From positions 1 through 64,000 of the forward strand of contig JAIESI010000043.1 in assembly GCA_019746135.1 (NCBI GenBank): a DNA stretch of 64,000 nt, given 5' to 3'. Both the position numbers and the translations under genes were made by a program. How positions within the stretch are numbered: the first letter of the stretch is position 1; each line of letters opens with the position of its first letter. The notes under the pieces are model-generated. The model was not told where the DNA came from. It did not search any database and worked only from the letters and a program-made list of their open reading frames with translations. Positions 8,333-55,001 of this stretch are shown here, one piece after another. The stretch comes from Xanthobacteraceae bacterium (lineage in GTDB: Bacteria; Pseudomonadota; Alphaproteobacteria; Rhizobiales; Xanthobacteraceae).

Positions 8333-8340
8333 CGGTCTTG

Positions 8341-8393
8341 TGTCCCGGGCAAGACGCAGCACGCAGTGCTGCGTCGCAGACCCGGGACCCCGG
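8341..8393 (+). repeat. 53-bp palindromic repeat, left copy flanking GIY-YIG gene
   Basis: TGTCCCGGGCAAGACGCAGC...GCAGACCCGGGACCCCGG; inverted relative to 8714..8766. Confidence 0.85.
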
Positions 8394-8411: not shown

Positions 8412-8699
8412 ATGTCGGAGTTCTACGTCTACATCCTTGCCAGCCGCTACCGCGGCACGATGTATGTCGGCATAACAAACGATCTCAGCCGTCGAATGGG
8501 CGAGCACAAGTCGGGTGCGGTGCCCGGGTTTACCAAGCGCTACCAAGTCAATCGGCTTGTGTATTGCGAGCCCTACGCCTCCATAGATGAAGCACGAACG
8601 CGCGAGCATACGCTCAAACGCTGGCATCGCGATTGGAAGTTCAAGCTGATTGAAGCGAACAATCCCGACTGGCGAGACCTGACGCCGGATATTGTCTAG
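8412..8699 (+). CDS. Small single-domain GIY-YIG nuclease
   Basis: MSEFYVYILASRYRGTMYVGITNDLSRRMGEHKSG: YVYIL...YVGIT motif, Arg, conserved Glu region. Confidence 0.9.
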   Translation: MSEFYVYILASRYRGTMYVGITNDLSRRMGEHKSGAVPGFTKRYQVNRLVYCEPYASIDEARTREHTLKRWHRDWKFKLIEANNPDWRDLTPDIV

Positions 8700-8713: not shown

Positions 8714-8766
8714 CCGGGGTCCCGGGTCTGCAGCGCACCACTTCGTGCCGCGCTGCGCCCGGGACA
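8714..8766 (-). repeat. 53-bp palindromic repeat, right (inverted) copy flanking GIY-YIG gene
   Basis: CCGGGGTCCCGGGTCTGC...GCCCGGGACA; the 18-bp inner and 10-bp outer ends are perfect reverse complements of 8341..8393. Confidence 0.85.
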
Positions 8767-8791
8767 CGAGACCGATGGCGCTTCGGAAAAA

Positions 8792-51333: not shown

Positions 51334-52476
51334 TCAAACCTTAGCAGCTTTGGGCGCGAACTCGGCGCGCACTTTGGCGCTGTGCTCGCCCACCGCGGGC
51401 ACCGGCCCATAGCGCCGCGGCTCGCCGTCGCGCTGGGCGGCGGGCGCCGGATAGGACAGCGGGCCGTTGGGCGAGCCGAGCGTGATGCGGCGCAGATGCG
51501 GGTGCCGCGCGAGCTCGGCCGGGCCGTTGACGCGGCCGAAGGCGATGTCGGCCTCGGCGAGCTTCTGTTCCAGCGCGTTGACGTCGAGCCGGCCGAAGGC
51601 GGCGGCGACCCTGCCGTCGGTTTCGGCGCGGCGCTTCACCCGCTCGATGTTGGTGGCGAAGTTCGGATCGGCGGCGAGCGCTTTGTCGTCGAGCACCTTC
51701 TCGGCGAGGATGCGCCATTCGCGGTCGCTCTGGATCGAGATCAGGATATCCGCGCCGTCCTTCGACTTGAACACGCCGTAGGGCGAGATCGAGGTGTGCG
51801 CGAGCCCGATGCGCTTGGGCGGCGAGCCGCCCTCGTGCTGCAGCAGCGGCACCGTCATCCAGTCGGCCATGGCGTCGAACATCGACACCGAGATCGCCGC
51901 GCCCTCGCCGGTGCGGCCGCGCGCGATCAGCGCCTCGAGGATCGCCTCATAGGCGTTCATGCCCGAGGCGATGTCGCAGACCGACACGCCGACGCGCGAG
52001 GGCGCCTCCGGCCCGCCGGTCACCGAGGCGACGCCGGCCTCGGCCTGGATCAGCATGTCGTAGGCCTTGCGCTGCGCATAGGGGCCGGTTTCGCCATAGC
52101 CCGACACCGAGCAGACGATCAGCCGCGGATAGTCGCGCCGCAGCCGGTCGAGGCCGAAGCCGAGCTTGGCGACCGAGCCGGGCTTGAGGTTCTGGATGAA
52201 CACGTCGGCTTTGGCGAGCATGGCTTCGAGCAGCGCCTTGTCCTCGTCCTTGGCGAGATCCATCACCACGGATTCCTTGCCGCGGTTGAGCCAGACGAAA
52301 TAGCTCGACTGCCCGTTTGCGAGCGCGTCGTAACCGCGCGCGAAGTCGCCCTCGGGACGCTCGATCTTGATGACGCGCGCGCCGGCGTCGGCGAGCCGGC
52401 ACGAGCACATGGGTGCTGCGACCGCCTGCTCCAGCGAGACGACGAGGATGCCGGAGAGGGGGAGCGTCGGTGCCAC
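51334..52476 (-). CDS. CaiB/BaiF family (class III) CoA transferase
   Basis: LPLSGILVVSLEQAVAAPMCSCRLADAGARVIKIERPEGDFARGYD; ADVFIQNLKPGSVAKLG. Confidence 0.92.
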   Translation of the reverse strand: MAPTLPLSGILVVSLEQAVAAPMCSCRLADAGARVIKIERPEGDFARGYDALANGQSSYFVWLNRGKESVVMDLAKDEDKALLEAMLAKADVFIQNLKPGSVAKLGFGLDRLRRDYPRLIVCSVSGYGETGPYAQRKAYDMLIQAEAGVASVTGGPEAPSRVGVSVCDIASGMNAYEAILEALIARGRTGEGAAISVSMFDAMADWMTVPLLQHEGGSPPKRIGLAHTSISPYGVFKSKDGADILISIQSDREWRILAEKVLDDKALAADPNFATNIERVKRRAETDGRVAAAFGRLDVNALEQKLAEADIAFGRVNGPAELARHPHLRRITLGSPNGPLSYPAPAAQRDGEPRRYGPVPAVGEHSAKVRAEFAPKAAKV

Positions 52477-52479
52477 GGC

Positions 52480-52884
52480 TTACCTCTCCCCGCTTGCGGG
52501 GAGAGGTCGGACCGCGAAGCGGTCCGGGTGAGGGGGGCTCTCCGCGCGGACGGCGGCTGCGATGACTTCGAGAACGCCGTCCATATTTTTCATAACGTCA
52601 TGATTCCAGAATCGCAGGACACGGTAGTTGTGGTCGGTCAGCCATCGGTCGCGAATACGATCCGTTTCGCTGTCAGCGTGCTGTCCGCCATCAAGCTCGA
52701 CAATCACTCGCGCTTCGCGGCATACGAAGTCAACCACGTATGGCCCGATCGACTCCTGGCGAACAAACTTACGACCTTCAATTGATCGCGAGCGCAGCCG
52801 GTACCATATGCGTAATTCGGCATCGGTTGAATTCTGACGAAGCCGCCGCGCTCTGTTCGTTTTGATGACGTTGGCAGGACGCAT
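52480..52884 (-). CDS. DUF559 (Vsr-like) endonuclease-domain protein
   Basis: RLRQNSTDAELRIWYRLRSRSIEGRKFVRQESIGPYVVDFVCREARVIVELDGGQHADSETDRIRDRWL. Confidence 0.9.
   Translation of the reverse strand: MRPANVIKTNRARRLRQNSTDAELRIWYRLRSRSIEGRKFVRQESIGPYVVDFVCREARVIVELDGGQHADSETDRIRDRWLTDHNYRVLRFWNHDVMKNMDGVLEVIAAAVRAESPPHPDRFAVRPLPASGER
52481..52536 (+). repeat. 56-bp palindromic repeat, one side of DUF559 gene
   Basis: TACCTCTCCCCGCTTGCGGGGAGAGGTCGGACCGCGAAGCGGTCCGGGTGAGGGGG. Confidence 0.85.
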
Positions 52885-52893
52885 GTGGCAACT

Positions 52894-52949
52894 CCCCCTC
52901 ACCCGCCGCGCTACGCGCGTCGACCTCTCCCCGCAAGCGGGGAGAGGTA
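52894..52949 (-). repeat. 56-bp palindromic repeat, inverted copy on other side of DUF559 gene
   Basis: CCCCCTCACCCGCCGCGCTACGCGCGTCGACCTCTCCCCGCAAGCGGGGAGAGGTA. Confidence 0.85.
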
Positions 52950-52974
52950 CTCGCGGCGCCACCACCCGAACATT

Positions 52975-54144
52975 CTAGTACGACCGCGGCAATCCAAGCA
53001 CGTGCTCGGCGATGTACGACAGCACCAGATTGGTCGAGATCGGCGCCACCGTGTAGAGCCGCGTCTCGCGGAACTTGCGCTCGATGTCGAACTCCTCGGC
53101 GAAGCCGAAGCCGCCATGGGTCTGCAGGCACATGTCGGCCGCGGCCCATGACGCTTCCGCGGCGAGCTGCTTCGCCATGTTGGCCTGCTCGCCGCAATCC
53201 TCGCCCGCCTCGTAGCGCCGCGCGGCCTCGTGCACCATCAATTCCGCGGCGCGCATCTGCATGTAGCAGCGGGCGATCGGGAACTGGACGCCCTGGTTCT
53301 GGCCGATCGGCCGGTTGAACAGCGTGCGCTCCTTGGCGTAGGCCGACGCCTTCTCGACGAACCACTTGGCGTCGCCGATGCACTCCGAGCCGATCAGGAT
53401 GCGCTCGGCATTCATGCCGGAGAGAATGTAGCGGAAGCCCTTGCCCTCCTCGCCGACCAGGCTGTCGGCCGGGATCCGCATGTTGTCGAAGAACACTTCC
53501 GTCGTCGCGTGGTTCATCATGGTGCGGATCGGCCGGATCGTCAGCCCCTGGCCCTGCACCGCGCGCATGTCGACCAGAAACACCGACAGCCCGTCGGTGC
53601 GCGACTTCGCCTGCTCGCGCGGCGTGGTGCGGGCGAGCAGCAGCATCAGGTCGGAATGCTCGGCGCGCGAGGTCCAGATCTTCTGGCCGTTGACCACATA
53701 GCCGCTGTTGCCGTCCTTGACCGCGGTGGTGCGCAGCGACAGCGTGTCGGTGCCGGAGGTCGGCTCGGTGACGCCGAACGCCTGCAAGCGCAACTCGCCC
53801 CTGGCGATGCCCGGCAGATACTTCTGCTTCTGCTCGGCGCTGCCGTGCCGCAGCACCGTGCCCATGGTGTACATCTGCGCGTGGCAGGCGGCGCCGTTGC
53901 AGCCCGCGGCATGGATTTCCTCCATGATCGCCGCGGCCGCCGACATCTTGAGGCCGCTGCCGCCGTATTCTTCGGGGATCAGCGCTGCGAGAAAGCCCGC
54001 CTTGGTCAGCGCCTGCACGAACCCGGTGGGGTAGGCGCGCTCGCGGTCGACCCTGCGCCAGTATTCGCCGGGAAATTCCGCGCACAACGCCCGCACCGCC
54101 TCACGGATCGGCGCAAGCTCGGCGTCGTGCGCGGCGCCCGTCAT
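52975..54144 (-). CDS. Acyl-CoA dehydrogenase family protein
   Basis: LQAFGVTEPTSGTDTLSLRTTAVKDGNSGYVVNGQKIWTSRAEHSDLM; QTHGGFGFAEEFDIERKFRETRLYTVAPISTNLV. Confidence 0.93.
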   Translation of the reverse strand: MTGAAHDAELAPIREAVRALCAEFPGEYWRRVDRERAYPTGFVQALTKAGFLAALIPEEYGGSGLKMSAAAAIMEEIHAAGCNGAACHAQMYTMGTVLRHGSAEQKQKYLPGIARGELRLQAFGVTEPTSGTDTLSLRTTAVKDGNSGYVVNGQKIWTSRAEHSDLMLLLARTTPREQAKSRTDGLSVFLVDMRAVQGQGLTIRPIRTMMNHATTEVFFDNMRIPADSLVGEEGKGFRYILSGMNAERILIGSECIGDAKWFVEKASAYAKERTLFNRPIGQNQGVQFPIARCYMQMRAAELMVHEAARRYEAGEDCGEQANMAKQLAAEASWAAADMCLQTHGGFGFAEEFDIERKFRETRLYTVAPISTNLVLSYIAEHVLGLPRSY

Positions 54145-55001
54145 CCCTTCACCTCGGCGCGGCCGTTGTTCATCACCACGACGTTGCGCGCGGGCACCGA
54201 GGCGCGGAAGCTCACGACATTGCCGTCGCGCCACATCTCGGTGCGGATGGTCTCGCCGGGAAACACCGGCGCCGAGAACCGCCCGCCGAACGCGGCGACG
54301 CGCGCAGGATCATAGTCGCAGACGCTTTTCAGCAGCGCGTGGCCGACGACGCCGAAGGTGCCGAGCCCGTGCAGGATCGGCTTGGGAAAGCCCGCGGTCG
54401 TGGCCATCTCCGGGTCGATGTGCAGCGGATTGCGGTCGCCGGAGAGGCGATAGATGGTCGCCTGCTCCGGCCGCGTGGCGAGATCGCAGACGAGGTCCGG
54501 CGCGCGCCCGGGGATCGGGTGCACCGGCGGGCTCTCGCGCGGCGGGCCGCCGAAGCCGCCGTCGGCGCGGCAGAACGTGGTCTGCGTCGTGGTCGCGATC
54601 AGCGCGCCGCTCGCCTTGTCAAAGACCTTGCGCTCGGCATAGACCAGCGCACCCTTGCCCGGCCCCTTGTCGATCACCTCGAGGACGCGGGTCTTGCCGA
54701 CCACCGTGCCGGCCGGCTTCAGCGGCTGGTGCAGGAAGACCGCCTGCTCGCCGTTGACGATCCGCACCCAGTCGATGCCGGTGTCGAGATCGCGCACCCA
54801 GAAGCCCGGATAGCCGAGCATGGCGGCGAAGGTCGGCAGGGCCTTGAGGCTCCGCTCGTAGACGAAATCGAGCTGTTTCAGGTCGAGCGGGTCGTGGCCG
54901 AGGCCGACGCCCAGCGCGTAAAGAATCGTGTCCTTGTCGGTGTAGGTGTGCTCGGCGTCGGGGATTTTCAGCGCGAGCAGCTTGTCGTAGTTGATGGCCA
55001 T
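54141..55001 (-). CDS. MaoC-family enoyl-CoA hydratase
   Basis: YTDKDTILYALGVGLGHDPLDLKQLDFVYE; YRLSGDRNPLHIDPEMATTAGFPKPILHGLGTFG. Confidence 0.92.
   Translation of the reverse strand: MAINYDKLLALKIPDAEHTYTDKDTILYALGVGLGHDPLDLKQLDFVYERSLKALPTFAAMLGYPGFWVRDLDTGIDWVRIVNGEQAVFLHQPLKPAGTVVGKTRVLEVIDKGPGKGALVYAERKVFDKASGALIATTTQTTFCRADGGFGGPPRESPPVHPIPGRAPDLVCDLATRPEQATIYRLSGDRNPLHIDPEMATTAGFPKPILHGLGTFGVVGHALLKSVCDYDPARVAAFGGRFSAPVFPGETIRTEMWRDGNVVSFRASVPARNVVVMNNGRAEVKG

Follow-up and report, generated by a model that had tools for sequence, protein, structure and literature searches.

A small DUF559 nuclease gene between inverted REP-like palindromes: a candidate minimal mobile cassette with a parallel GIY-YIG family

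REP-like palindromes are common bacterial genome repeats and, to our knowledge, only their GTAG class has a known dedicated enzyme. The locus described here raises the question why a small nuclease gene is enclosed by two inverted copies of such a palindrome and whether gene and palindrome form one unit. It is located in a 64,000-nucleotide stretch of Xanthobacteraceae DNA (the window), whose source assembly is fragmented (395 contigs, with 8.5% contamination). An earlier reading made from the letters alone (the sequence-only reading) had reported inverted arms of 56 nt around a single DUF559 gene. This was confirmed, as the two arms are 88% complementary over 56 nt each, are separated by a gap of 357 nt and have only one gene between them, which matches DUF559 (PF04480). 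The immediate neighbours of this gene encode a CaiB-like protein and an acyl-CoA dehydrogenase, and the locus contains the following features:

52477-52974, no strand: insertion junction between the CaiB-like gene (51334-52476) and the acyl-CoA dehydrogenase gene (52975-54234)
52481-52536, plus strand: left arm of the inverted repeat, with a two-hairpin DNA fold (z -5.9) and a second hairpin that covaries in relatives
52480-52884, minus strand: DUF559 (PF04480) nuclease gene, 134 aa from an ATG at 52884 (start inferred), protein match to PF04480 with E 3.4e-37
52894-52949, minus strand: right arm, inverted relative to the left one, with a variable second hairpin of its own and the inner GGGTGAGGGGG toward the gene

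The left arm consists of an outer hairpin CCTCTCCCCGC-TT-GCGGGGAGAGG, a variable second hairpin GGACCGC-GAA-GCGGTCC and the gene-facing GGGTGAGGGGG. Its core stem CCTCTCCCCGC-NN-GCGGGGAGAGG occurs twice in the window, compared to 0.00 expected occurrences from 100 dinucleotide shuffles even when three mismatches are allowed. Folded as single-stranded DNA, both arms are predicted to form two hairpins followed by a free GGGTGAGGGG tail, with energies of -23.4 and -22.3 kcal/mol (z -5.9 and -5.3). In the genome search PF04480 was matched at 52549-52860 of the minus strand (E 1.7e-36), and the stop codon TAA (52480-52482) lies right at the left arm's outer edge. As the frame continues through this arm to the stop, the left arm also encodes the last ~19 residues of the protein. 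An alternative upstream GTG start would yield 161 aa.

The AlphaFold2 model of the protein (mean pLDDT 85) shows a PD-(D/E)XK fold of the Vsr/homing-endonuclease type (EDxHD). The best structural match is 3hrl, a solved DUF559 protein of Neisseria gonorrhoeae (Z 14.8), and the model furthermore matches the homing endonuclease I-Bth0305I in its catalytic domain (Z 10.4, with an rmsd of 2.5 over 88 residues) as well as E. coli Vsr (1cw0, Z 8.7). Foldseek matches to the mitochondrial ribosome reflect PD-(D/E)XK-like domains and were dismissed as functional relatives. The acidic residues and the histidine expected to be catalytic (E, D, ExDGxQH, D) are invariant in 38 relatives, and related genes are under purifying selection (dN/dS 0.04-0.12, with many dS values near saturation). 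From these data the main rival explanation arises, namely that DUF559 is a host DNA-repair nuclease acting, like Vsr, in very-short-patch repair, while the palindromes are ordinary REPs or terminators gathering nearby. The Vsr match and the purifying selection would fit such a role, and the Caulobacter DUF559 protein VsrA, for which a repair function was proposed, drives an SOS response when a methyltransferase is mutated (PMC12907096). We nevertheless consider the host-repair explanation unlikely on the grounds given below.

To assess how general the layout is, the 260 bp left of the domain were aligned to the reverse complement of the right-hand 260 bp and a score of at least 16 was counted as a pass. 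Within the genus, inverted arms were found at 21 of the 23 testable small DUF559 genes and at none of the five long DUF559 proteins (~400 aa). Across several phyla 54 of 76 named DUF559 loci have them (55/77 before one run of Ns was removed) and 15/30 loci of the class passed, compared to 0.2% of 1039 control positions inside the same loci. The sampling of loci is biased to close DUF559 relatives. The check suggested by the sequence-only reading, whether palindromes stand at most DUF559 loci, therefore comes out positive for the small genes. From Alphaproteobacteria to Chloroflexi and Planctomycetes the arms follow one plan, with a CCYTCYCCC stem-loop on the outside and a GGG(T/A)GRGGGG box on the inside, toward the gene, and their common signature is a CCTCTCCC-type outer hairpin followed by the gene-facing GGGTGAGGGG. 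Not every DUF559 gene has arms on both sides (exceptions are L043 and L033), and E. coli ycjD and an Azospirillum gene (L203) have a palindrome on one side only. The DUF559 gene of Legionella anisa (L161) is surrounded by inverted repeats of ~147 nt, longer than elsewhere, with a GGGAGAGGGTTGGGGAGAGGG-like ending. A connection of DUF559 or GIY-YIG with palindromes of this kind was not found in open-licence papers.

Where a second hairpin is present, it varies with compensatory changes (covariation 0.501, versus 0.132 shuffled and at most 0.075 slid). This would be expected if the arms were RNA elements, i.e., small RNAs, mRNA stabilisers or terminators that serve expression of the nuclease gene and not mobility. 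Both arms also resemble the Rfam family whalefall-1 (RF01762) over its full length, sharing a CUCUCC hairpin, a variable hairpin and a GGGUGAGG tail in the same order. The end-to-end alignments cover 52480-52535 (plus strand) and 52895-52950 (minus strand) of the window. Membership in this family was rejected, as the scores of 23.2 and 18.9 bits are below the gathering cut-off of 37 bits, and no whalefall-1 match was found in 16 related loci at E 0.05. The candidate whalefall-1 RNA was reported as noncoding RNA from a whale-fall metagenome only (PMC2864571); it may represent a palindrome of the DUF559 type from uncultured bacteria. A role restricted to gene expression is very improbable, since the copies stand in opposite orientation on both sides of the gene and many others are distant from any DUF559 gene.

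These dispersed palindromes are found singly or as pairs. In its simple form, the DUF559 palindrome was present in 29 of the 47 class genomes with a strong DUF559 gene versus eight of the 143 without (p 5e-15). Phylogenetic non-independence among the 190 genomes was not corrected for. The reversed pattern, used as a control, did not occur in any of them. Genome size as driver of the correlation was rejected, as the association persists at 3 Mb or more (25/35 versus 3/45, phylogeny uncontrolled). Outside the class, E. coli carries 11 copies and N. gonorrhoeae 18. The E. coli DUF559 gene is ycjD, whose region was matched in 3365 of 5426 genomes, and downstream of it lies a palindrome that follows the same plan and is present in multiple copies (L204, 1890-2448). 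A simple empty site at ycjD was rejected: strains without ycjD have an efflux operon by fabI that replaces sapF-ycjD, so the E. coli borders cannot be read. In the window genome, three loci carry gene-less palindromes of subtype A (L009 at 1501-1738, L007 and L011), as an inverted pair in L009, with long G/C runs beside or between the palindromes that are perhaps an assembly artefact. Azospirillum sp. OGB3 (G216, the genome of L150) contains 178 copies, many of them paired at ~65-80 bp with the tails outward, opposite to the cassette layout.

The sequence-only reading had also described a similarly laid-out GIY-YIG cassette 44 kb away, which proved to be real (locus L084):

8333-8393, plus strand: left arm of the GIY-YIG cassette, GTGTCCCGGG...AGACCCGGGACC type
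8412-8699, plus strand: GIY-YIG gene, 95 aa, PF01541 at 8421-8642 (E 3.4e-14, domain E 4.1e-15)
8714-8774, minus strand: right arm of the GIY-YIG cassette, from the inverted-flank test

Its arms reach a score of 31 in the inverted-flank test. Among small GIY-YIG genes, 14 of 28 from the genus and 15 of 29 from the class have inverted flanks of this other palindrome family, compared to 0/103 controls. Most GIY-YIG arms (CGTCAT...ATCCA) agree with published CGTC REPs (PMC3733652), and the criterion for these, a CGTC/TGTC/CCTC start, a stem-loop and a CCA-type tail, is met by arms such as CGTCATTCCGG...CCGGAATCCA and CGTCATCCCCGCG...GGGGATCCAG; the GTGTCCCGGG subtype of the window fits it more poorly. 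The flanked DUF559 and GIY-YIG genes thus support the proposal that nuclease elements bounded by repeats form a general class comprising two independent folds, and the tests that could have refuted this proposal did not do so.

Cassettes were compared between unrelated sites, three of them in the window genome, and homology stops at or near the outer arms. Two cassettes of the window genome (L004 and L005) share 597 columns at 75% identity, with the homology ending 12 nt inside and 0 nt from the arm edges. For most other DUF559 pairs it ends within ~20 nt of the arm edges, the widest being at most 43 nt, and the borders of GIY-YIG pairs are less sharp than those of DUF559 pairs. At the acyl-CoA dehydrogenase/CaiB junction, 11 genomes of the genus were compared. 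The junction contains the DUF559 cassette in G000 and G003, a GIY-YIG cassette in G001 and G010, a decayed GIY-YIG in G008, a bare palindrome pair in G007 and a short remnant in G009, and it is near-empty in G002, G005 and G006. For G004, no acyl-CoA dehydrogenase was found and a different sequence follows. The polymorphism that the sequence-only reading had suggested looking for thus exists between species, and its link between the two cassettes, an inference at that time, obtains direct support, as relatives hold GIY-YIG in the other palindrome family at the very same junction. At the pheS/pheT junction, DUF559 cassettes, a single palindrome or no gap were observed depending on the species. 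A multi-junction DNA query covered the first six of sixteen junctions. Empty junctions exist, but the species compared are too diverged, and none of the empty/filled pairs is related closely enough to reveal exact borders or a target duplication. In two Bradyrhizobium, a Tardiphaga and an Afipia (L090, L091, L092, L094) the DUF559 cassette occupies a common junction beside a LivH-like transporter gene, which indicates that some copies are old and inherited.

Borders of this kind could also be generated in trans, if a RAYT or IS200/IS605-type transposase encoded elsewhere moved palindrome-bounded units with the nuclease as accidental passenger. RAYTs do move GTAG REPs and some RAYT genes are flanked by unrelated terminal inverted repeats, although the same study found no transposase of any kind between CGTC REPs (PMC3733652). 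An accidental passenger is doubtful, even more so than the host-repair explanation, as across phyla or the whole class the gene between the arms comes again and again from these two nuclease families; the distribution of RAYTs was outside this analysis.

Palindrome similarity tracks protein similarity, with Mantel r of 0.553 for DUF559 and 0.643 for GIY-YIG (p 0.0002), cassette pairs from the same genomic context being left out. Five genus genomes holding the matching DUF559 subclade contain 5, 6, 9, 19 and 14 copies of the subtype-A palindrome and the remaining six contain 0-4, so that the two groups do not overlap (rank probability 1 in 462). Every nuclease subclade is associated with a palindrome subtype of its own. 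The host-repair explanation leaves this subtype-by-subclade pairing unexplained, as it does the two-sided arms in fixed inward orientation in most copies, the loss of homology close to the arms between cassettes at unrelated sites and the GIY-YIG parallel. The pairing would equally be expected if the cassette was copied passively in one piece. It remains possible, if improbable, that the nuclease is defence or selfish cargo, spread passively via homologous recombination between dispersed palindromes. Identical dispersed palindromes would supply the homology, and junctions that hold cassettes in relatives hold bare palindromes. However, the presence of the palindrome depends on the presence of the nuclease, cargo would exchange palindrome families more freely than the Mantel pairing indicates, and for a defence function PADLOC returned only a weak partial match of the nuclease, to DpdF.

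We therefore favor, at a probability of roughly 55%, a minimal mobile cassette in which a small nuclease gene lies between inverted REP-like palindromes and the nuclease acts on its own palindrome. The two parts of this reading differ in strength. That a mobile unit exists and that nuclease and palindrome are paired is well supported: the unit recurs from outer edge to outer edge, its palindromes match, gene-less copies occur and the enzyme gene is under purifying selection. With matching arms in widely separated bacteria and a second enzyme family with different arms, these loci resemble compact mobile cassettes. The action of the nuclease on its palindrome is inferred and only somewhat favored, as catalysis itself is an inference and neither cleavage nor movement was demonstrated. 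Mechanistically, the nuclease, a DUF559 (Vsr-like) enzyme in one family and a GIY-YIG enzyme in the parallel one, would recognise the fold or sequence of its palindrome and nick or cut the DNA there; repair or single-strand capture might then place a copy of the cassette, or of a palindrome pair without the gene, in short gaps between genes.

Among known systems, the Vsr-like (EDxHD) homing endonucleases contain the closest characterised mobile-element fold to DUF559, I-Bth0305I, and the GIY-YIG fold also occurs in (free-standing) homing endonuclease genes. The cassettes differ in being palindrome-bounded and in lacking an intron or intein host, and cleavage of an empty allele was not shown. 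VsrA and E. coli YcjD belong to the same DUF559 family as the window protein, and a related palindrome lies beside ycjD. For VsrA, a cellular phenotype was reported and mismatch repair was proposed, and palindromes are not mentioned in the text of that study (PMC12907096). The RAYT-REP/REPIN systems are similar in that a small DNA-processing gene lies inside inverted palindromes, gene-less copies are dispersed and enzyme and palindrome subtypes co-vary; inverted flanking repeats and gene-less dispersed palindromes are RAYT/REPtron criteria that the DUF559 cassettes meet. In contrast to RAYTs, the enzymes are PF04480 (PD-(D/E)XK) or PF01541 (GIY-YIG) proteins instead of HUH Y1 (IS200/IS605-type) transposases, and the terminal GTAG tag is missing, the DUF559 arms ending in TACCTCTC and GGGTGAGGGG. 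CGTC-tagged REPs, a family separate from the DUF559 palindromes, are abundant in Alphaproteobacteria and no dedicated or associated transposase was found for them (Di Nocera et al., 2013; PMC3733652), whereas here GIY-YIG genes are located inside inverted pairs. Whether DUF559 and GIY-YIG are the dedicated mobilisers of two palindrome families, CCTCTCCC/GGGTGAGGGG and the CGTC REPs, in a RAYT-like layout without a transposase, is in our view evenly balanced. As candidate movers, each is subtype-paired with its palindrome: GIY-YIG becomes a testable candidate for the CGTC class, whose mover was left open (PMC3733652), and DUF559, for the second family, obtains a testable role as a domain of unknown function that is found in E. 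coli (ycjD) and was solved from Neisseria gonorrhoeae (3hrl).
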